9,647 bases of DNA, from contig MHDQ01000052.1 of NCBI GenBank assembly GCA_001803565.1, forward strand, positions 1-9,647, read 5' to 3'. Below are positions 1 to 9,647 of the stretch, piece after piece. Within the stretch, counting starts at the first letter, position 1. Each line of letters begins with the position of its first letter. The notes below the pieces were generated by a model. That model saw only the letters and a program-made list of their open reading frames with translations, did no database searches and was not told the origin of the DNA. The position numbers and the translations under genes are program-made. Source of the DNA: Nitrospinae bacterium RIFCSPLOWO2_12_FULL_45_22. GTDB taxonomy: Bacteria > 2-12-FULL-45-22.

Positions 1-792
1 CTTTTTTTATTACATTATTTACGATCGGCTCAGAGAAAAACCGATGAAAATCTTATATCAAATAGTTCTGCGAAAATCGGTGTTAAAGAATCTTTTCAAG
101 AAGCTTGGACTGACGTTGCAAATTTTTTATGTAAAAGTGGATGGGAAATACAAAACTTAATAGTTAGAGTTCAGAATCCAACGCTTTTCGACATTAAATT
201 GAACAAGAAGTTTATAAAATTTGCAGTTGATAATAATTTGAAAACTCCCAAGGCTGTGGCATATACCATCTTCCCACATAAGCTATACAAAAAATGCGGA
301 AACGCTACCAATTTATTTAATGCCTATAATAGGCGAAGAGGTCTCTATGAACGCTTAAAAATTCGTCAACCTAATACCTGGGGAACATATTTTAAAAGGA
401 TGACACACTATCCTACATCTGGCGGTACAATAAATCAACTTGCTAATATTATTGGAGCCATTAATAATCGTGGATATATTAGCAAGGCCGCATATACAAT
501 TATTATACAAAAAGCTGGGAGCGAAACAATTAGACCACGAGGAGGGCCATGTCTTAATTATTTGGCTATTCAACTCGATCCAAATGAAAGAACACTGGGG
601 ATATTAGCAGTTTACCGAAATCATGATTTTCTAGAAATGGCATATGGAAATTATTGGGGATTGTGCAATTTAATAGATTTTATGGCAAGGGAAACAAACT
701 TTAACCCGGGATATCTGACATGTATCTCATCCCGTAGCTACGTTAAGGATAAAAAGAGTTGCTTTAAAAAATTTGTAGATTCTACGCTATGA
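1..792 (+). CDS. Thymidylate-synthase-like protein (5' partial)
   Basis: The frame is open from base 1 to TGA at 790-792 (263 residues), with no ATG, GTG or TTG before 199. Conserved-looking sequence precedes the TTG at 199, so the true start lies upstream of the window. The order of thymidylate synthase (TS) motifs is visible: an Arg cluster (residues 111-113), WGxYF (the WGxYG strand), GGPC with the putative nucleophile Cys184 (codon 550-552), RNHD (Arg206, Asp209), Asn217 exactly eight residues after that Asp as in TS, and SRSY with Tyr247. TS transfers a C1 unit to C5 of dUMP through a Cys adduct. Asn217 matches the dUMP-type Asn rather than the Asp of CMP hydroxymethylases. Oddities: the His two before the Tyr is Arg, the His after the nucleophile is Leu, and only about 16 residues follow the Tyr, so the C-terminal folate-closing segment is missing. 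It is probably a divergent pyrimidine C5-modifying enzyme rather than housekeeping ThyA. Its stop overlaps the next start (ATGA). Family confidence is good; the reaction is unknown. Confidence 0.8.
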   Translation, partial: LFLLHYLRSAQRKTDENLISNSSAKIGVKESFQEAWTDVANFLCKSGWEIQNLIVRVQNPTLFDIKLNKKFIKFAVDNNLKTPKAVAYTIFPHKLYKKCGNATNLFNAYNRRRGLYERLKIRQPNTWGTYFKRMTHYPTSGGTINQLANIIGAINNRGYISKAAYTIIIQKAGSETIRPRGGPCLNYLAIQLDPNERTLGILAVYRNHDFLEMAYGNYWGLCNLIDFMARETNFNPGYLTCISSRSYVKDKKSCFKKFVDSTL

Positions 793-1823
793 GGTACCAC
801 CAACCGCCGTTTCTTTTACAAGAATGTAAAATCGAAGTAACTTATAGCTGCCCACTGGTATGTATTCACTGTTCAAGCGATTCAACACCAGAAAGTACAA
901 TAGAAATTTCTAAAGAGAAATGTTTAAAAATAGTCGAAGAAGCAATTGCTCTAGGTACTCAAAAAATAACATTTTCTGGCGGTGAACCTCTCGAATGGAA
1001 TGGATTTGAAGAAGCCACCACGTTTGCCTCAAGTAATAAAGTTGAGGTGATCGTTTATTCCTCAGGTAATATTTCACACTTAGAAAATAAAATGAAATCA
1101 TTAGCATCTTGCAATATATCAACAATTATTTTTAGTATCTTTGGAAGTTCTTATTCCACACATGAAGTAATAACAAGAAGGAGAGGTAGTTTTAATAATA
1201 CTATAAATGCTGTTAAAGCAGCAAAAAAAGCCGGGTTAAATGTTGAGTTTCACTTTGTACCGCTATCAATAAATTATAAAGAATTGCCAGGTATTTTTAA
1301 TCTGGCCAGATCTCTAGGTGTAAAGAAAATTAGTGTACTTAGATTTGTCCCGCAGGGAAGGGGTTATCTTATAAGACGCTACTCGTTAAATAAAATACAA
1401 TATTTGGAACTGAAAAAAATGATTGAGGCTGCCAGGAAGAACGGGTATAATGTCAGAACTGGGTCCCCTTTCAATTTCTTATTACTGAATGACAAACCGG
1501 AATGTTCAGCAGCAATTGATCGCATTATAATCGGACCAGATTTAAGAATTTATCCCTGTGATGCCTTTAAACAAATAAAGGCTGAAGATCTAGTGGGAAC
1601 TTTAGAATATTCTGCTATTGATCGTTGGACTCTATGGGAGTGTTGGGAAAAATCTCCTTATCTCAAGGCCATACGTGAGCACCTTACAACTAATTTCGCT
1701 AAGCCATGCAATAATTGTAGCGTACTTGAATTGTGTCTATCAGGGTGTCTTGCACAAAAAGTTTTAATATCTAATGATTTAAGAAAACAACCCGATCCTA
1801 TGTGTATCAAGAGTGGGAAATAG
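789..1823 (+). CDS. Radical SAM/SPASM domain protein
   Basis: This 344-residue protein starts at the ATG of an ATGA overlap with the TS-like gene, without a clear Shine-Dalgarno, so translation is probably coupled. The radical SAM cluster motif CxxxCxxC is at Cys21, Cys25 and Cys28, and the SAM-binding GGEP is at 64-67, in an N-terminal partial TIM barrel. The C-terminal SPASM region has Cys239, Cys257, the CxxCx5CxxxC set Cys307/310/316/320, and Cys339, enough for two auxiliary 4Fe-4S clusters. Radical SAM enzymes cleave SAM reductively to a 5'-deoxyadenosyl radical. Characterised SPASM members mostly modify peptides (PqqE, anSME), but some act on small molecules. No precursor peptide gene is visible nearby, and the TS-like and glycosylase-like neighbours suggest a nucleotide, nucleic acid or protein-partner substrate; that is inference. 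It lacks the short SPASM-free layout of prokaryotic viperins. Oxygen-sensitive clusters fit an anaerobic host. Confidence 0.9.
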   Translation: MRYHQPPFLLQECKIEVTYSCPLVCIHCSSDSTPESTIEISKEKCLKIVEEAIALGTQKITFSGGEPLEWNGFEEATTFASSNKVEVIVYSSGNISHLENKMKSLASCNISTIIFSIFGSSYSTHEVITRRRGSFNNTINAVKAAKKAGLNVEFHFVPLSINYKELPGIFNLARSLGVKKISVLRFVPQGRGYLIRRYSLNKIQYLELKKMIEAARKNGYNVRTGSPFNFLLLNDKPECSAAIDRIIIGPDLRIYPCDAFKQIKAEDLVGTLEYSAIDRWTLWECWEKSPYLKAIREHLTTNFAKPCNNCSVLELCLSGCLAQKVLISNDLRKQPDPMCIKSGK

Positions 1824-1825
1824 GA
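1822..1825 (+). promoter_or_regulatory. Shine-Dalgarno deciding the start of the UDG-Panacea gene
   Basis: AGGA lies 8 bases before ATG 1834 and overlaps the stop of the radical SAM gene. It favours ATG 1834 over the upstream in-frame GTG at 1813, which has only weakly purine-rich sequence before it. Confidence 0.45.
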
Positions 1826-1833
1826 TTGTATCG

Positions 1834-3015
1834 ATGAGAAATTTTAAATCTTTCTCAAAAGAAAAACGATTCGATGAATTTAAAAAAGCAGTTCAATACT
1901 GCTCTATATGCCCCAGGTTATCTAAAAGAACCAAAGTATTATCCGATTTAAATGGAAATATAAACTCTAAGGTTCTCTTTATTGCCGAAGCGCCGGGCCG
2001 CTTAGGAGCAGATCGTACTGGAATTCCATTATGTGGAGATCGTACTGGGGACATATTTGAGTCGCTAATTAGTAATATTGGTTGGAAAAGAGAACAAATT
2101 TTTATTACAAATACTGTTTTGTGCAATCCAAGGCAGGAAAACGGTAATAATGGCACCCCCACTAAAGAAGAGATTTTTAACTGTTCCTTATATTTGGGAA
2201 TGACAATAGAACTAATTGATCCAGGGGTAGTTGTCCCAATGGGCAAAACAGCCTTAGAGGGATTAACTTTGCTTTATCCACACTTTATTTCCCTAAAAAA
2301 AGATATCGGGAAAATTATTCCATGGAATGGAAGATATATTTTTCCACTTTATCATCCAGGTCCAAGAGCATTGGTACATCGATCAATTATCAAACAAAGA
2401 GCTGACTATATGCTTTTAGCAAAACAAATCGATCCATTGAAAGGGCGCAAAATAAAAAAAACCAAAAAGCTTTCATCTCAATTATCCCTTCTTAGTGTGA
2501 ATAGAACTCCACTACATGAAATGGTTTTACTTTTTGTTAATAAGTTTAAAGAATTGAGTATTTTTAAGCTGACAAAACTGCTTTATCTCACAGATATTTT
2601 GGCCCTAGAGCAATTGGGAAAAACATTAAGTGGGGAAATTTATTTAAGAAAACAGGAAGGGCCTTGGGTACCCAAATTAAATGAAGTTTTAAAGTCAATA
2701 AAAAGCTCAAACATTGAAATTAACTATAAAAATAAAATTCCCTATATAGTAATAGGTCCAAATCCAATTCCCGAATCCCACCTTGATGAGAATGCACTAT
2801 CTGTTGTCTTAAGAGTTATAGAAAAATATGGAAATATGAGCAATGCTGAAATAAAATCCGCTGCATATCTCACCGAGCCAATGAAATATATTCTTAAACG
2901 GGAGAAAGGAGGTAGAGATATGCGTAATATACCTGTAATTTATAAAGAGAAAACAGCTATAGAATTGGACAACAAAGGTGATCTGGTGAAAGTAGAAGAG
3001 AAAGTTACTGTGTAA
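1834..3015 (+). CDS. Uracil-DNA-glycosylase-like domain fused to Panacea (SocA/DUF4065) domain
   Basis: I chose ATG 1834 (393 residues) because AGGA at 1822-1825 sits 8 bases upstream; GTG 1813 in the same frame would overlap the radical SAM gene by 11 bases and has no Shine-Dalgarno. Residues about 15-200 are a UDG-superfamily domain of the iron-sulfur type (COG1573-like). They have CxxC (Cys23, Cys26) plus Cys97 and Cys117 as likely 4Fe-4S ligands, motif 1 EAPG (52-55) followed by a GDRTG loop, FITN (90-93) before the third Cys, and the motif-3 loop HPGPR (174-178) with a second His at 182. Residues about 229-355 match the Panacea/SocA-like domain, with a KLLYLTD helix (248-254), an SGE...EGP strand and a late helix pair. 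UDGs excise uracil or altered bases; Panacea domains are antitoxin or proteolytic-adaptor modules. The fusion is unusual. A linker rich in Lys joins the halves. Domain assignments are strong; substrate and role are unknown. Confidence 0.85.
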   Translation: MRNFKSFSKEKRFDEFKKAVQYCSICPRLSKRTKVLSDLNGNINSKVLFIAEAPGRLGADRTGIPLCGDRTGDIFESLISNIGWKREQIFITNTVLCNPRQENGNNGTPTKEEIFNCSLYLGMTIELIDPGVVVPMGKTALEGLTLLYPHFISLKKDIGKIIPWNGRYIFPLYHPGPRALVHRSIIKQRADYMLLAKQIDPLKGRKIKKTKKLSSQLSLLSVNRTPLHEMVLLFVNKFKELSIFKLTKLLYLTDILALEQLGKTLSGEIYLRKQEGPWVPKLNEVLKSIKSSNIEINYKNKIPYIVIGPNPIPESHLDENALSVVLRVIEKYGNMSNAEIKSAAYLTEPMKYILKREKGGRDMRNIPVIYKEKTAIELDNKGDLVKVEEKVTV

Positions 3016-3408: not shown

Positions 3409-4563
3409 CTAATTTTGCGGTCTATTCAATCTCCGTTGTTGTTCCAATCTGCGCCGTTCAGCTTCGATCTCACGCTTCAGGATCGCCGGGTCTGGCAACT
3501 GGAGTTTGTAACGTGAAGCGAATACCTTGTTATTCAGTCCACCAAGGGCATAGTGCACCACGGCCTCATCCTTTTCGGAACAAAGAATCAGCCCGACCGG
3601 TGGCTCTTCGCCTTCGATCACCTCATTCTCCCTCAGGTAATTCAAATACAGGTTCATCTGACCAGCATCGGCATGGGTGAATTTGCCGACCTTTAGATCG
3701 ATGACCACAAGACAGCGAAGCCCTCGATGATAAAAAAGAAGGTCCAGGTAGTAGGATTCACTCCCAATCTGAAGCCTTTTCTGTCGGGCAACGAATGTGA
3801 AACCATAGCCTAGTTCCAAAAGGAAATCTGCCAGGTGCTGGATGAGGGCGTTTTCAAGATCTTGTTCCGAAATCGGTTCTGGAAGACCGAGGAATTCGAG
3901 AACATACGGGTCTTTGATTGCTTCTTCAGCACTAACCCGATCTCCAGCCTCCTCTGCTTTTTTAAGTAATTCTCCCTTCTTTTTCGAAAGAGCAATACGC
4001 TCGTAAAGCATGGAGTTGATCTGGCGATCAAGTTGCCGAACAGACCAGCCGGCCCGTCGGGCTTCTTCCTCATAGAAATCGCGCTTTGCCTTATCGTCTA
4101 TCGCCATAAGACGGATATAGTGAGACCAAGAGAGGGAAAAGATTTCAGAGGCTACGCCAATAAATTTTGCAGACAGTGTCTGCGATTTCTCCCTTGTTGA
4201 AATAGGCGGACCAGAGGATAGGAATTTCGCAGACGGTGTCTGCGAAATTGGCCAAGTTACATAAAACAGCCTCATTTGCTCCAGGTTACGTTCCGAAAAA
4301 CCACGCCCAAACCTGGCAATTAAATCTTTTGAAAGTTTTTTTAATAACTCTCTTCCATAATCTGCTCTTCTTTTTCCTTTCTGCTCAAACTCAACGATTC
4401 GCCTTCCGATCTCCCAGTAGGTTATAATTAAGATTTTATTGACTGAACGGGCTGCTGTATGCCGGGCCTGTTCTAACAATTCACTGACGCCAGTCAGAAG
4501 ACCAGAGTAGTCTTGATGATCTATTATTTTTATCCCCTTATCTTTAGAGTTTTTCTTCATCAT
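3409..4563 (-). CDS. DUF1016/YhcG-family PD-(D/E)XK nuclease domain protein
   Basis: This 384-residue protein has the two-part layout of YhcG/DUF1016 proteins. The N-terminal helical domain (about 20-150) contains the family hallmarks TYWEIGRRI (48-56), YGRELL (69-74), GFSERNLEQMR (88-98) and LSWSHYIRL (144-152). The C-terminal PD-(D/E)XK nuclease domain shows Glu237, Asp274 (YYLDLLF), DLK at 289-291 and the helix GQMNLYLNYL with Gln302. The end is a charged Arg/Glu/Gln-rich tail. Such proteins are found in mobile and defence islands and are thought to be nucleases; a precise role is not established. The start is ATG at 4563, whose ATGA overlaps the stop of the helicase-nuclease gene; a second ATG follows directly at 4560. 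The segment 107-134 carries a duplicated SQTxSAKF encoded by palindromic repeats, apparently an insertion in the N-terminal domain that keeps the frame. Confidence 0.88.
   Translation of the reverse strand: MMKKNSKDKGIKIIDHQDYSGLLTGVSELLEQARHTAARSVNKILIITYWEIGRRIVEFEQKGKRRADYGRELLKKLSKDLIARFGRGFSERNLEQMRLFYVTWPISQTPSAKFLSSGPPISTREKSQTLSAKFIGVASEIFSLSWSHYIRLMAIDDKAKRDFYEEEARRAGWSVRQLDRQINSMLYERIALSKKKGELLKKAEEAGDRVSAEEAIKDPYVLEFLGLPEPISEQDLENALIQHLADFLLELGYGFTFVARQKRLQIGSESYYLDLLFYHRGLRCLVVIDLKVGKFTHADAGQMNLYLNYLRENEVIEGEEPPVGLILCSEKDEAVVHYALGGLNNKVFASRYKLQLPDPAILKREIEAERRRLEQQRRLNRPQN
4163..4189 (-). repeat. Intragenic palindromic unit, copy 1 (imperfect)
   Basis: The core GCAGACAGTGTCTGC (plus strand, 4169-4183) is a 6-base inverted repeat around AGT with imperfect AT-rich arms. 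In the DUF1016 frame it encodes SQTLSAKF (residues 127-134). It sits exactly 60 bases from copy 2. Confidence 0.7.
4223..4249 (-). repeat. Intragenic palindromic unit, copy 2 (perfect 12-base inverted repeat)
   Basis: AATTTCGCAGAC at 4223-4234 is perfectly inverted at 4238-4249 around the spacer GGT (4235-4237). In the DUF1016 frame it encodes SQTPSAKF (residues 107-114). A 12-base perfect palindrome inside a coding gene, duplicated 60 bases away in the same phase, suggests a small palindromic element that spread in frame. Confidence 0.75.
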
Positions 4564-7430
4564 ATCTCTATCTTATCTGATCTGATTACACCTTCACGGC
4601 CGCAATATACCCGCAGGTCACATTCCTTGCAGACCTTATTCTCTGGCTTCTTACGTATCTCGTAATCTTTCTTGAGAATCTGCTCAACGACATGGTCAAA
4701 ATAAATACCCGCTTCATTCACCATCTCGAAGCGATAGGGAAACTGCATCAGGGCCTCATCTCGACTTGATTCACCTGTCCAATAAAGGAGAAGCCTCTCT
4801 GCTCTTTTGCCATACCGCCGCTCAAGGATGTGACCATAAATACAAAGTTGTTTGTAGTAGCTATCGAGTCTTAGATCATCCTCAAGGGGTCGAGGCTGTG
4901 ACTTAAAGTCAAGGAGTTCTAACTTGTCATCCGTCCCCAGTAGGAGGTCGATCTTGCCGGTAAGAATGTAATCATCCTTTTCCACGGATACATCGACCTC
5001 AGTCTCAATAATGCGGTCCATCTCGGCCCGATTCTGATTGAAATAGTTCATGACCTGAAAGAAGGCATTATCACGCTGCACCTTACCAATGGGACGGATT
5101 CCCCGGGTAATAAGATGGCGGAAATTGAAATCGAACAACTCTCGAATCTTCCCCTCTGCTAACTCATCGGCTCGTTTATCCAAGGCCCGGCGGTGAATAT
5201 CCTCGATGGTCTGATGCACCAGGGCCCCGAAAAAGATTTCCGCTGATCGGGAGGGAGTGAAGTCATAGTCCCTAAAGAACTGGTATTGCCTGGGACAGGT
5301 CTCATAAACTTTGAGGTCACTGGTGAAGCTGAAAGTCTTCTTTATGGTCATACGACTCCTCAGGCGAAAGAAGAGCGACTGGAGGAGATCTTTCCTCACA
5401 TAAGGCCATTGAGGTAAACCCTGCCAAATGGGTTTAAAGTGGGGCTTGGGCTGTTCTGTGGAAGTGAGCACTAACATCTTCTCTGGCCGTGAGAAAGCAA
5501 CGTAATAAAGACGCATTCGATCGAAGGCTGTGATCCTGTTTTCCGGCTCAAAGGGTTCTCTGTGATAAAAAGGTAACAGATGTCTTTCGACATCTTTTGG
5601 CGAAGAGAGCTGTTTGTCAAGGGAACCAACGATAACCACCGGGAATTCCAACCCTTTGGCCTGATGGATAGTCATCACCTGGACATACCCTTTGGGAAAA
5701 GGTTGATCGGGGTCCTCATACTCGTTGATCCCGCCTATATAGAGGAGACGCAGAAAGCTGTTGAAAAAATGGAGGCAAAGAAAATCCCGGTTGCGGTGTG
5801 AGACAATGGTATAATGATAGTAGTTCTGAAATATGTTCAACAGTTGGGAGAAGATGGCAAGGTTACGTGCCCGGTTCTCATTCTTGACCATGGAAGCAAA
5901 TGGCTCATGGGCTAATAAGTGATAAAAGTAATCGGCCAGCCTGCGATCGAGGGTTTCACCCTCCTGTAATAGCCGGATATCGGCCACGAATTGTTGGATA
6001 CAGAGGGAAAGAGGATGGGGATTCCCGAAGTTACGGCCCAGTTCAATGAGGCAATCATCCACATAGCTCACCATTTCATTAAGACTCTTCCCCTTAACTT
6101 CACCGCGTCCTTCTCCGTAATATCCGAGCAGGATTGCAAAACAGGCCACCATATATCGGATCTCTTCGTTCTCAAAATAACCCCGGGCACGAGGACAAAA
6201 AGCCGGAATCCCTTTAGCTTCCAATGCCCGGATATAGTGGCCACTGTGTTCCAGACGCACGCTGTGCAATAATAGCGCTACCTGGCTGTAGTCTTCAATG
6301 ACCCGGGCCTCTTTCAAAAAATGGATGAGATCTGCCACTCGACTTCCCTCATCTTTTCTGGATTCACCCCATATGGAAAAGACAGCCGGATATTCTGGAA
6401 AAATTCCTTCAGGGTCAGGGACGATCTCCTTGTCATACCGGAACTGGGAGGCAGAGACCGGATTGCTCCAATCGTGGCTCGACATAAATTTGTTATATGC
6501 CTTTATAATCTTCTCGTGGGAGCGGTAGTTAATGGCTAGTTTACAAATCTTACAGGCAGTAAAATTTTCCTGAAATTCGAGGAAGTTTCTTACAGTGGCT
6601 CCACGAAACCGATAAATACTTTGATCCTCATCACCGACTACGCAAATGTTATTCTGCGGGTTGGCCAGAAGGAGAAGGAGTTGTTCTTGAATATAATTCG
6701 TGTCTTGGTATTCATCTACCATGATAAACTTGATCCTTCCCCTGATGCCCTCACTCGTTCTCGGATTCTGAAGGAGTTGGTAACAGAGCTTTTGCTGGTG
6801 GGCAAAATCGATACAGTTTTTCTCATACAAGGCGGTCTCATAAGCCCGGTAGGCACCGCCAATGGCCTGGATAAATGGATCAGGCACCGAGAGGAGCCTG
6901 TCAGGATCTATCAATTCCTCTGTTATCTTATCAAAGTAGTTCCGTGCGCCTTCAATAGCAGTCCAGCGTGTTTTCCATCGCTTAAGATATTTCCCATTTA
7001 GCTCAGGTCCGATAATCTTATCAAAATTGTCATAGAGAAACAGGAGTTGGGTAAGTTCATCAAGGACTTCATAATTATTGCCGAGGGGAGTGAGATGTCT
7101 AAAAGTCATCAGGAAATCATTACAAATGCCATGAATCGTACCCACGAAGAGGTCTGACATATCGCCAGCGTAATTGAGTTTTTTAGCTGCCGCTGCAATT
7201 CGATCCCGCAATTCGAAGGCCGCCTTTTCAGTAAAGGTGCAGATAAGCATCTCCCGTGGTTGAGCAAGTTGCTGAAGAAGGATGTTAAGGGCCCTTACTA
7301 CTAAAACCAAGGTCTTACCTGAACCAGGCCCGGCGATGATGAGCAATGGGCCCTCAGTATGACCCACTGCTTCGACTTGGCCGCTGTTTAAATCAGGGAA
7401 TGCGTTGATGATTTGGCCGACAATGCTCAT
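4560..7430 (-). CDS. UvrD/AddA-type helicase with C-terminal Cas4/AddB-like Fe-S nuclease
   Basis: A single-chain SF1A helicase-nuclease of 956 residues from ATG 7430, which shares its A with the radC TGA (TGATG); a TTG one codon upstream is less likely. Numbering below counts from that TTG. Helicase motifs: Walker A AGPGSGKT (34-41), motif II DEYQDT (240-245), motif III VGDEDQSIYRFRGA (266-279), INYRSHE (301-307), motif V TIHQAKGLEF (588-597) and motif VI YYVAFSRPEKML (643-654). From about 700 follows a PDDEXK_1/RecB-like nuclease with His740, Asp829 (GKIDLLL), DFK (842-844) and Gln862. Cys713 plus Cys935, Cys938 and Cys944 are placed like the 4Fe-4S staple of Cas4 and AddB. It should unwind DNA 3' to 5' and cut it. 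RecBCD/AddAB-like end processing, repair or defence is possible. It is coupled to radC upstream and overlaps the DUF1016 start downstream. Confidence 0.92.
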   Translation of the reverse strand: MSIVGQIINAFPDLNSGQVEAVGHTEGPLLIIAGPGSGKTLVLVVRALNILLQQLAQPREMLICTFTEKAAFELRDRIAAAAKKLNYAGDMSDLFVGTIHGICNDFLMTFRHLTPLGNNYEVLDELTQLLFLYDNFDKIIGPELNGKYLKRWKTRWTAIEGARNYFDKITEELIDPDRLLSVPDPFIQAIGGAYRAYETALYEKNCIDFAHQQKLCYQLLQNPRTSEGIRGRIKFIMVDEYQDTNYIQEQLLLLLANPQNNICVVGDEDQSIYRFRGATVRNFLEFQENFTACKICKLAINYRSHEKIIKAYNKFMSSHDWSNPVSASQFRYDKEIVPDPEGIFPEYPAVFSIWGESRKDEGSRVADLIHFLKEARVIEDYSQVALLLHSVRLEHSGHYIRALEAKGIPAFCPRARGYFENEEIRYMVACFAILLGYYGEGRGEVKGKSLNEMVSYVDDCLIELGRNFGNPHPLSLCIQQFVADIRLLQEGETLDRRLADYFYHLLAHEPFASMVKNENRARNLAIFSQLLNIFQNYYHYTIVSHRNRDFLCLHFFNSFLRLLYIGGINEYEDPDQPFPKGYVQVMTIHQAKGLEFPVVIVGSLDKQLSSPKDVERHLLPFYHREPFEPENRITAFDRMRLYYVAFSRPEKMLVLTSTEQPKPHFKPIWQGLPQWPYVRKDLLQSLFFRLRSRMTIKKTFSFTSDLKVYETCPRQYQFFRDYDFTPSRSAEIFFGALVHQTIEDIHRRALDKRADELAEGKIRELFDFNFRHLITRGIRPIGKVQRDNAFFQVMNYFNQNRAEMDRIIETEVDVSVEKDDYILTGKIDLLLGTDDKLELLDFKSQPRPLEDDLRLDSYYKQLCIYGHILERRYGKRAERLLLYWTGESSRDEALMQFPYRFEMVNEAGIYFDHVVEQILKKDYEIRKKPENKVCKECDLRVYCGREGVIRSDKIEI

Positions 7431-8149
7431 CAAAGGAGACCCCCCGCCCGGAAGCTAAAGACCTCATCGTTTGAGACGATGATATGGTCAAAGACAGTGA
7501 TGTTGAGTGTCTTGGCCGCAAGAACAAGGGCTCGTGTAAGGGTTTTATCATGCTCTGAGGGATTGATATTCCCGTCCGGGTGGTTATGGGCAAATACTAA
7601 GACTGATGCCTTCTTTTTTAGAGCCGATTCCATTACTTTACGCGGATAGATCGTTGCCCGATCTATAGTTCCCTCGGTCAATGTTTCTAAATCAATTATA
7701 CGAAAGCGACTGTTAAGGTATATGACTTTAAACATTTCGTTTGGTTGGGCACCGAGGGCCGCTTTGCAATAATCATGTAGACGATTTGGATCTTCTAAAG
7801 ATAGGATTTCAGGTTCATTCTTTTCCAGGGTAAGATCGGCTTGACTTTTAGGTTGTAGATAAAGCGTAGCGGCCTCGCGAATGAAACGAATAGCTAATGG
7901 AGCGACTTCGCCAATTCCGGGTATCTTCCTCAATTCTTCCGCTGGGGCATCAAGGACACCCCGGAAAGATCCGAATCTCCTTATGGCTTCTTTAGCCATC
8001 ATTTTAACATCTTTTCGCGGTACGGCCAATGTGAGCAGGAATTCTATCGCTTCATAATCTTGAAAAGAAGCGAGGCCAGTTTTTTTAAACCTTTCACGCA
8101 GACGTTTTCTGTGGCCGAGATAATGTTGGGCTGCAGAGTTTGATTTCAT
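7430..8149 (-). CDS. radC: RadC family JAB/MPN domain protein
   Basis: This 239-residue protein has the full RadC layout and near-usual family length. The N-terminal UPF0758 region opens HYLGHRKRLRERF (9-21) and includes a helix-hairpin-helix-like LRKIPGIGEVAPLAI (73-87). The C-terminal JAB/MPN+ metalloprotease-like domain has Glu159 and the metal motif HNHPDG (188-193) with Ser198 and Asp201, that is HxH-x7-S-x2-D, so the metal site looks intact. RadC was once linked to DNA repair, but its biochemical role is unresolved; copies are frequent in mobile and defence regions. It is the first gene of the minus-strand operon, and its TGA overlaps the helicase-nuclease ATG as TGATG. No strong Shine-Dalgarno precedes ATG 8149, and I could not place a convincing promoter in the short gap upstream. 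Confidence 0.93.
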   Translation of the reverse strand: MKSNSAAQHYLGHRKRLRERFKKTGLASFQDYEAIEFLLTLAVPRKDVKMMAKEAIRRFGSFRGVLDAPAEELRKIPGIGEVAPLAIRFIREAATLYLQPKSQADLTLEKNEPEILSLEDPNRLHDYCKAALGAQPNEMFKVIYLNSRFRIIDLETLTEGTIDRATIYPRKVMESALKKKASVLVFAHNHPDGNINPSEHDKTLTRALVLAAKTLNITVFDHIIVSNDEVFSFRAGGLL

Positions 8150-8228
8150 TTAACCAGCAAGGTACAGATTTGGATAGATACACATATTTACCTTTACCAG
8201 CTATATCATGATGGCTATTACCAAACTT
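8150..8228. other. Gap upstream of radC
   Basis: These 79 bases separate the CoA-transferase remnant from radC and should hold the promoter of the radC operon unless it is read through from AOR. AT-rich stretches are present but I cannot point to a -35/-10 pair with acceptable spacing. The octamer ATCATGAT (8205-8212) is palindromic, but no longer operator is evident. Confidence 0.3.
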
Positions 8229-8336
8229 TTATATAATCTTTTCTTCCTGCAATTTCCATAGACCTTCTCGTGACAGCCCTAATAGGCCACAATAAATCTC
8301 TTCGGTATGTTTACCTAGGGCCGGGGCACCGCGATT
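8229..8336 (-). pseudogene. C-terminal remnant of a CaiB/BaiF (class III) CoA-transferase
   Basis: A 35-codon frame closed by TAA at 8337-8339 on its 5' side and ending at TAA 8231-8229 reads GAPALGKHTEEIYCGLLGLS then REGLWKLQEEKII. This matches the usual C-terminus of CaiB/BaiF CoA-transferases, with P-x-LG-HT-E followed by LLG(L/Y)S-E-x3-L-EE-x-(V)I. The rest of the roughly 400-residue gene is absent, because the AOR stop lies only 25 bases upstream. It is a deletion remnant with no start codon or ribosome binding site. Such transferases commonly accompany acyl-CoA catabolic genes, which suits the AOR neighbour. Confidence 0.65.
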
Positions 8337-8345
8337 TTAGGTAGA

Positions 8346-8361
8346 ATAGGTGGAGACCTAT
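8346..8361 (-). terminator. Short hairpin directly after the AOR stop codon
   Basis: ATAGGT (8346-8351) and ACCTAT (8356-8361) form a perfect 6-base stem with a 4-base loop immediately downstream of the AOR TAG. The stem is AT-containing and no proper T-run follows, so it would be a weak terminator or a transcript-end stabiliser at best. Confidence 0.25.
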
Positions 8362-9647
8362 CTAGGAGGGGAGTTTACCATGCCTTTGCAGATCATCCGC
8401 TACCTCTTTTAGCCCGAATCTCTCTAATGTCTCCCGCTTAGGGGCACCGCCAGTGATATCCCAACCCCGCAGTTGATAATATTCATCCTTTAGCTTCTCT
8501 AATTCTTCTGGGTCAATAGATACTTTAGTCTTTTTGTCCCGATCTGATTTCATCTCACGGTAGAAACCTTTGGCTAATTTATCATCCGCCCGGCTCAGGC
8601 CCTCTCGCACCTCAAAGGCCCTTTGCAGATGCCGTACCCGGGCTGAGGTTTCTATGAGAGATCCCACCGGGGTATCAACTCCGAAGCCTATACTCAAGAT
8701 ATGAGCCATATGTTTCGGTGTTATCGGGAGGCCAATAAAGGGGGTCATCCAGGTACATATACCTAATAAGTCTCCCAAACCATTTAGGTCCTCATTATAA
8801 CTTACAAACGGTGCCTTCCCTTCTGTCAACCTGGGATCAGCGGCATCTCTTGTCCCAGCTATTTGCTTTGAAATAGCTTCCCATTTCTTTAACCTATTCT
8901 CTAAATCTTCTTGATCACCACTCATGCCAAAAGTTAAAGCAGTATCCATTTCGCTGACTATAAATCCTTTTATCCCCTCACCCGTGGCCGATACGGCAGT
9001 GGCCAACCCTATTCCCTTAAGAGGTGGGATGTGAGTATCCATCGGAGACCCTTTGGCATGTTGAAGATACTCTTCTGCCCCTCTACCGATCTTCTTTGCT
9101 GCCTCTACTATCCCTTCGGCCAGAAGGTCCCCGATCTTTTCTCGCTGAAGTATCTTCCGGCTAATTTCTAAGATAGCCTCTCGGCTCCCATACTGCATGG
9201 GTATGCCATCAGTATCATCCTCGGTAATTATCTTATTTTTGTATAATTCCATTAGCCAGGCAATGATATTGGCCAGGGAACGGGCATCTATGCCAGCCTT
9301 CTGGCACAAAATCATGACCTCCCAGAATACCTTCATATCGGTATTCCTTAGGTCCCAGGTTAGATCAGCATAGGGACTGCATTTTACTACCCCGGCACCT
9401 ATCCCAGAAATCTGATAGGAATCCATACAGGCTACAGGACAGCCAAAGCAACCTACCCGCTTATACAGATGCTCTTTTAAAAAACCTTGGAGACTAAGAT
9501 TCTCAGCCCAGGGTTCACCGATAAGGGAGTAAATAGCCCGATATTCCCTATCCTGCCATCCCGTTAGCCCTACAGTGTGAATTTCCTTATAGGATGGGGC
9601 TTGTTTTATTAACTCGTGTAGTTTTTGACATTCTTCATAAAATTTGG
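8362..9647 (-). CDS. Aldehyde ferredoxin oxidoreductase family protein (5' partial)
   Basis: The frame is open from the window edge (first full codon at 9645) to TAG 8364-8362, about 427 residues, so the ATG at 9426 is internal. The Fe-S motif CFGCPVAC (CxxCxxxC) lies just before that ATG at 9450-9427. The fourth ligand is the Cys of LGICTWM (codon 8757-8755), as in Pyrococcus AOR. The C-terminal AOR domains 2 and 3 are present; the N-terminal tungstopterin-binding domain lies outside the window. The family oxidises aldehydes or related substrates with a W/Mo-bis-pyranopterin and one 4Fe-4S cluster, passing electrons to ferredoxin; BamB-type benzoyl-CoA reductase subunits are relatives. The substrate cannot be assigned from this part. 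It indicates anaerobic metabolism. A CoA-transferase remnant directly downstream suggests a former catabolic operon. Confidence 0.9.
   Translation of the reverse strand, partial: KFYEECQKLHELIKQAPSYKEIHTVGLTGWQDREYRAIYSLIGEPWAENLSLQGFLKEHLYKRVGCFGCPVACMDSYQISGIGAGVVKCSPYADLTWDLRNTDMKVFWEVMILCQKAGIDARSLANIIAWLMELYKNKIITEDDTDGIPMQYGSREAILEISRKILQREKIGDLLAEGIVEAAKKIGRGAEEYLQHAKGSPMDTHIPPLKGIGLATAVSATGEGIKGFIVSEMDTALTFGMSGDQEDLENRLKKWEAISKQIAGTRDAADPRLTEGKAPFVSYNEDLNGLGDLLGICTWMTPFIGLPITPKHMAHILSIGFGVDTPVGSLIETSARVRHLQRAFEVREGLSRADDKLAKGFYREMKSDRDKKTKVSIDPEELEKLKDEYYQLRGWDITGGAPKRETLERFGLKEVADDLQRHGKLPS

Follow-up and report, generated by a model that had tools for sequence, protein, structure and literature searches.

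The first 3015 bases of a 9,647-nucleotide contig from Nitrospinae bacterium RIFCSPLOWO2_12_FULL_45_22 (MHDQ01000052.1; contig C52 of a 3.67-Mb genome in 321 contigs, the whole stretch being called the window below) encode, all on one strand, a thymidylate synthase (TS)-like protein, a radical S-adenosylmethionine (SAM)/SPASM protein and a uracil-DNA glycosylase (UDG) fused to a Panacea domain. This trio is probably an anti-phage variant of the nucleotide- and base-modification conflict systems. More specifically, we tentatively assign it, at a little under an even chance, to the horizontally acquired defence-type modules, as a variant of cassettes that pair a TS-like gene with either a UDG or a 5-hydroxymethyldeoxyuridine (5-hmdU) DNA kinase. 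The assignment builds on direct observations: the gene fusion, the intact motifs, the TS fold, the conserved linkage, the acquisition signature, the defence-gene company of the relatives and the non-housekeeping status of the genes. One apparently mobile bacterial unit thereby brings together base excision, radical SAM chemistry and an enzyme of the TS fold. As an earlier sequence-only reading had supposed, the trio is not a named system in the literature searched, which did not reach the comparative-genomic papers Iyer 2013 and Burroughs 2015; these are said, perhaps, to describe parts of the wider cassette.

The close packing of the genes noted in that reading is seen in the sequence. The TS-like stop codon (TGA, 790-792) and the radical SAM start codon (ATG, 789-791) overlap as ATGA, and the radical SAM stop codon (TAG) ends 10 bp before the ATG of the third gene. 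The features are as follows.

1..792 (+), TS-like protein gene, an open frame with 263 residues visible, its 5' end lost at the contig edge
550..552 (+), Cys184 codon, presumed nucleophile, invariant in sets of 28 and 35 homologues
616..651 (+), codons 206-217, RNHDFLEMAYGN, match to the TS motif R-x-x-D...N
789..1823 (+), radical SAM/SPASM gene, 344 residues, PF04055 at 2.6e-18
849..872 (+), CxxxCxxC motif (CPLVCIHC) for 4Fe-4S/SAM; C21, C25 and C28 invariant in three relatives
1503..1805 (+), SPASM-type cysteine set C239, C257, C307, C310, C316, C320 and C339, all invariant in three relatives
1834..3015 (+), UDG-Panacea fusion gene, start ATG at 1834, with an in-frame GTG at 1813 as a possible alternative start
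1954..2379 (+), UDG domain, family-4-like, PF03167 at 8e-25
2569..2859 (+), SocA-like Panacea domain, PF13274 at 2e-11 (45.2 bits against a cut-off of 25.7)

A profile of the TS-like protein was run over 84,980 species genomes, and 80 loci were kept. The best of these, Chloroflexi locus L016, has the identical trio order (42-43% identity for the TS-like protein, 39% for the radical SAM protein and 39% for the fusion), and its trio starts 73 bases after a type I restriction locus encoding HsdM, a SIR2 protein, HerA, HsdS and HsdR. Locus L017, from a Bradyrhizobium metagenome-assembled genome, reads MazG-TS-UDG/Panacea without the radical SAM gene (fusion protein 34% identical over its full length), and locus L133, from Chloroflexota, has a radical SAM-UDG pair (5091-9207) with no TS gene, neighboured by a small unassigned protein (membrane by inspection), a dCTP-deaminase-like gene, a divergent helix-turn-helix (HTH) gene and an Mrr enzyme. 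The TS-like proteins of the window, L016 and L017 (hidden Markov model E-values of 2e-85 for the window protein, itself in the profile, 2e-62 and 5e-46) form a single tree group with support 88/96. The evidence for the trio comes from two examples, of which one lacks its 5' end, together with two partial cases. Its arrangement, which recurs in L016 and in part in L017 and L133, is beyond chance. The functional linkage proposed in the sequence-only reading is upheld by a gene order conserved in another phylum and by the recurring radical SAM-UDG and TS-UDG/Panacea pairs; the families were looked for together in other genomes, and the rare co-occurrence that it had named as telling against a system was not what was found. 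Its idea of the trio as a system stands as regards this linkage but not as regards a conserved core of three genes, the radical SAM gene being absent from L017 and the TS gene from L133.

The G+C content of the trio is 34.7%, against 46.3% in the remainder of the window and 46.0% in a 12-kb portion of contig C1, which suggests acquisition from elsewhere; the trio was probably acquired horizontally. The start of the window is an assembly fork with C1 (genome G000, 20261-20355), which shares window bases 1-86 and extends 9 bases further upstream, giving an in-frame ATG immediately 5' of window base 1. C1 departs from the window at about codon 29 of the TS-like gene and reaches a stop soon after, which may reflect strain variation or an insertion boundary within the gene; with only 86 bases in common, the DNA upstream was not recovered via C1.

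The three proteins

The domain identities given in the sequence-only reading, a TS fold, a radical SAM domain and a UDG joined to Panacea, all held. The TS-like protein has no Pfam match, PF00303 included, and scores 2e-11 (43.8 bits) against the archaeal TS model TIGR03283, below the cut-off of 174.55. Its AlphaFold2 model (pLDDT 90) has the TS fold, with a Foldseek E-value of 4e-11 and Z scores of 15-18 by VIA-align, whose top 50 contained, among the matches listed, the TS/hydroxymethylase group only, a listing that rules nothing out. The best structural match is the CMP hydroxymethylase MilA (Z 18.1, 3.3 Å over 204 residues), the phage dCMP hydroxylase AfhB is also among the best, and ThyA is somewhat farther (Z ~15), so that the protein as modelled is nearest in structure to the nucleotide C5-hydroxymethylases. 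Cys184, the nucleophile named in the earlier reading, lines up with the catalytic cysteine of solved TS structures. The R-x-x-D...N motif in RNHDFLEMAYGN supplies the phosphate Arg, the Asp and the pyrimidine-recognising Asn; Gly216 and Asn217 are invariant and R206 nearly so in the 28- and 35-homologue alignments, and Asn217 lines up with the pyrimidine-reading Asn of solved TS. D209 is kept in the group with a family-4-like UDG/Panacea partner (UDG4/Panacea; window, L016 and L017), not in most of the TS-like family. MilA and AfhB act at C5, and the earlier proposal that pyrimidine-C5 chemistry works alongside base excision fits. The host genome holds two ThyX genes, another UDG elsewhere and no ThyA match. 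With two ThyX genes, dTMP synthesis by the TS-like protein is unnecessary, and in agreement with the earlier reading the gene encodes a TS-fold enzyme that is not a housekeeping TS.

The second protein combines PF04055, CxxxCxxC and a complete SPASM cysteine set and, judged from its sequence, is an intact radical SAM/SPASM enzyme. Its closest NCBIfam model is PqqE, below threshold, and among solved relatives of its profile PqqE is nearest, over the full length, with BlsE second. Identity is 37% to the L133 protein. Close relatives were found in 2 of 400 Chloroflexota genomes (L016 and L133), both adjoining a UDG of the window type; a plasmid search gave no close relatives, its matches being mainly of the PqqE/MftC type at ~25% identity, and a viral scan with the radical SAM alignment gave none. 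A role in making a ribosomally synthesized and post-translationally modified peptide was also considered for the SPASM enzyme and rejected, as the gaps within the trio, whether of the window or of L016, showed no gene resembling a precursor.

The UDG domain of the third protein carries an EAPGRLGAD motif, an HPG motif and the Fe-S cysteines C19, C22, C93 and C113 (nt 1900-2184), all four invariant across the relatives compared, and its relatives in the PDB are TM0511 and the T. thermophilus UDG (1vk2, 1ui0). It falls below the NCBIfam cut-offs for type-4 UDG (3.9e-27; 94.9 against 250 and 88.9 against 125.3 bits) and UdgX (57.6 against 189.95 bits), and therefore represents a divergent subfamily with EAPGRLGAD as its signature. 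An AlphaFold2 model of the fusion (pLDDT 58, from three sequences) was set aside as poor. The toxin-antitoxin-like control entertained in the sequence-only reading found its sole support in the Panacea domain: no separate toxin gene was recognised beside the Panacea protein at L016, at L017 or downstream in the window. In two viral contigs a weak UDG match (24%) runs into the Panacea part (L175 6001-6705, L176 2059-2763); these are possible phage UDG-Panacea fusions.

The wider TS-like cassette family and the neighbouring genes

Almost all other TS-like loci have the order ACP-HTH-ImmA-(papain-like peptidase)-TS-like, together with MazG and one of two partners, a UDG or HMUDK, the latter being Pfam's 5-hmdU DNA kinase. 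Dereplication at 90% DNA identity left 50 groups, in which the partner is a UDG (21), HMUDK (25), UDG4/Panacea (2) or neither (2); UDG and HMUDK occur together in 0 of the 50, MazG occurs in 43 and HTH plus ImmA in 47. Because UDG and HMUDK are never together and one is nearly always present, they are read as alternative actors on one DNA product, and the family name of HMUDK suggests 5-hydroxymethyl-dU or a close relative as that product. What is conserved as the core is the TS-like gene with a partner at the DNA level, either UDG or 5-hmdU DNA kinase; the radical SAM gene is optional. Partner type tracks the TS tree, with 6 changes against 27 in shuffles. The cassette UDG is of another subfamily, ~22% identical to that of the window and without its Fe-S cysteines. 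The window belongs to this family by its homologous TS-like protein adjoining a UDG-superfamily protein. The trio thereby joins a broad and for the most part unannotated family whose members carry a glycosylase or, in its stead, a 5-hmdU DNA kinase, and this swap is a testable clue to the TS-like product. No HMUDK (PF18723) was found in the trio or in the four genomes concerned (window, L016, L017 and L133), an absence that is weakly supported because control genomes gave no match either. No name for the wider cassette was found in the literature searched; with its ACP-HTH-ImmA-C1 peptidase genes it is of the type of the nucleotide-centric conflict systems reportedly treated by Burroughs 2015 and Iyer 2013.

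Rhizobia, Streptomyces, cyanobacteria and a haloarchaeon carry members of the family on plasmids, and the cassette is also borne on islands. An 18.7-kb cassette-bearing region shows 95-100% identity among several Sphingomonadales genera (L059-L079) and is thus an element that has moved recently, so the cassette moves. A viral scan with gene 1 alone gave no relatives, one with the TS-like profile matched one viral contig, and 50,697 phage records held no relative of the TS-like protein; this near absence from phages favours a cell-side role over phage DNA modification. The link to DNA hypermodification drawn in the sequence-only reading therefore survives as an analogy only.

Several details of individual loci were also recorded. 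The loci L006-L015 and most of L018-L096 carry ACP, an XRE regulator, an ImmA/IrrE peptidase, a papain-like peptidase, the TS-like gene, MazG-C and a UDG or HMUDK, and the ImmA/IrrE peptidase of L006 has a chagasin-like domain. In the L060 copy of the 18.7-kb element the ImmA, peptidase and UDG frames are broken, and Actinoplanes regularis (L050, 12878-16047) carries, within a few kb of its main cassette, another MazG-HMUDK pair.

Downstream of the trio in the window, genes for RadC, a UvrD-PDDEXK helicase-nuclease and a DUF1016/YhcG nuclease (3409-8149, minus strand) form one operon with 4-base overlaps, which may be a defence or repair unit in its own right; the DUF1016/YhcG nuclease is the PADLOC candidate PDC-S02. 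An aldehyde ferredoxin oxidoreductase gene follows (8362-9645, minus strand) and another lies downstream of the L016 trio (12334-14289), the two being on opposite strands and at differing distances; the sharing is probably coincidental.

The favoured reading and its alternatives

Defence is favoured by the genes' company (a type I restriction-modification locus with SIR2-HerA, Mrr, DUF1016), by mobility, by the Brig1-3 glycosylases and by phage-protective systems in E. coli. There, anti-phage activity has been validated for systems that contain a TS domain or a 5-hmdU kinase, whether in one operon being unstated, and related systems are predicted as defence, with candidates listed by DefensePredictor (PMC13092281). 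Phages with modified bases are the targets of the UDG-superfamily defence glycosylases Brig1-3 (PMC11078745, PMC13160076).

A mechanism can be proposed for the trio as part of the favoured reading. With its Cys nucleophile the TS-like enzyme would attach one carbon, most likely as a hydroxymethyl group, at C5 of dUMP, and the radical SAM/SPASM enzyme would, in the weakest step, elaborate the C5 group or activate a partner protein. The altered nucleotide would be built into DNA during the phage burst, where its excision by the Fe-S UDG would leave abasic sites that halt replication, and the fused Panacea domain may restrain the glycosylase or govern its turnover until infection. A bolder form of this reading, which we put forward as a conjecture with the balance of probability well against it, is a bacterial immune module in which an abnormal pyrimidine nucleotide of the cell's own making, produced by the TS-fold and radical SAM enzymes, would enter fast-replicating phage DNA, and the Panacea-restrained glycosylase would destroy that DNA by base excision, with UDG and 5-hmdU kinase as interchangeable executioners across the family. 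If true, glycosylase immunity of the Brig1-3 kind would widen from phage-made to host-made base modifications.

Several observations weigh against assigning the trio to defence modules of this type. Making one's own poison base is costly unless tightly controlled, and the trio has no regulator; ACP-HTH-ImmA is missing at L016 and also at L017, and upstream of the window trio lies the contig end. Several classical TS residues were not seen to be conserved in the TS-like protein, and the radical SAM gene is present in two of the three loci with a TS-like and UDG4/Panacea pair. The EAPGRLGAD-type UDG occurs in 22 of the 400 Chloroflexota genomes, L016 and L133 counted, mostly as a lone gene in unremarkable settings, so the window UDG may simply excise uracil.

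Among the alternatives, the trio might strip phage DNA, the radical SAM enzyme and perhaps the TS-like enzyme exposing the base in hypermodified phage thymines for excision by the UDG, as with BapA and Brig3. This is unlikely, and yet the Brig3-BapA operon acts so on glucosyl-5-hydroxymethylcytosine (PMC13160076), and modified thymine is the target of Brig2. The radical SAM-UDG pair of L133, lacking TS and adjoining an Mrr type IV enzyme, suits stripping, whereas the TS-UDG/Panacea pair of L017, lacking radical SAM, does not. We also know of no characterised TS-fold enzyme that acts on anything other than free nucleotides, which further argues against it. Self-marking, in which the TS-like and radical SAM enzymes would put a modified thymine into the DNA of the host or of an element, with the UDG left to remove unmodified or wrong bases or to attack foreign DNA, is in our estimate quite unlikely: the association of the TS-like family with 5-hmdU DNA kinase and MazG, and the related steps of thymidine hypermodification pathways, speak for it, but the trio has no amino-acid or glycosyl transferase, the near absence of the family from phages is contrary to it, and the lack of HMUDK in the trio genomes adds a weak point in the same direction, the control genomes being unmatched too.

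Two further readings take the genes out of defence altogether. In the first, the product of the trio would be an antimetabolite, either a nucleoside or a free base, made in the manner of MilA and a BlsE-type radical SAM enzyme in peptidyl-nucleoside antibiotic pathways. The closeness of the TS-like model to MilA and the place of BlsE as second solved relative of the radical SAM profile speak for it; it is improbable, however, as the nearest match to the full-length radical SAM protein is PqqE, a DNA glycosylase with Panacea is out of keeping with it, as are the defence genes nearby, and neither the surroundings of L016 nor the downstream part of the window showed genes for transport or tailoring. 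Chance neighbourhood of housekeeping genes for thymidylate synthesis and uracil repair would account for the TS fold and the UDG homology, but we regard it as highly improbable and rejected both as housekeeping copies because the genome already has two ThyX and another UDG; the linkage is conserved in other genomes, and the TS-like sequence is divergent, without a Pfam TS match. We retain the assignment to acquired TS-like cassettes as our leading, tentative reading.

Comparison with known systems

With the SocA/Panacea antitoxins the trio shares a Panacea domain above the Pfam cut-off; it differs in that Panacea is fused to a UDG with no adjoining toxin gene recognised, and the SocA equivalog score is 12.4 against a cut-off of 190. 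The mildiomycin and blasticidin pathways (MilA, BlsE) also combine a TS-fold C5 hydroxymethylase with a radical SAM enzyme, whereas the radical SAM protein of the trio is of another subfamily, with a SPASM domain, and stands with a DNA glycosylase. In phages M6, ViI and SP10, thymidine hypermodification centred on 5-hmdU employs radical SAM enzymes and a hydroxymethylase of the TS family, which is the point of likeness; neither a 5-hmdU kinase nor a transferase belongs to the trio, and the phage records hold no relative of its TS-like protein. Brig1, Brig2 and Brig3, compared by description only, resemble the trio in having a UDG-superfamily glycosylase in defence surroundings and, in the Brig3 operon, an accessory enzyme, BapA; the passages compared mention no TS-like or radical SAM partner and no Panacea domain. 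Against the TS-like/UDG-or-HMUDK/MazG cassettes, the trio adds a radical SAM enzyme and has in place of the cassette UDG an Fe-S family-4-like UDG fused to Panacea, and at L016 it lacks ACP, HTH, ImmA, peptidase and MazG. The two are alike in their homologous TS-like proteins, in the partnering of these with a UDG-superfamily protein or a 5-hmdU kinase and in a mobile, defence-like distribution.

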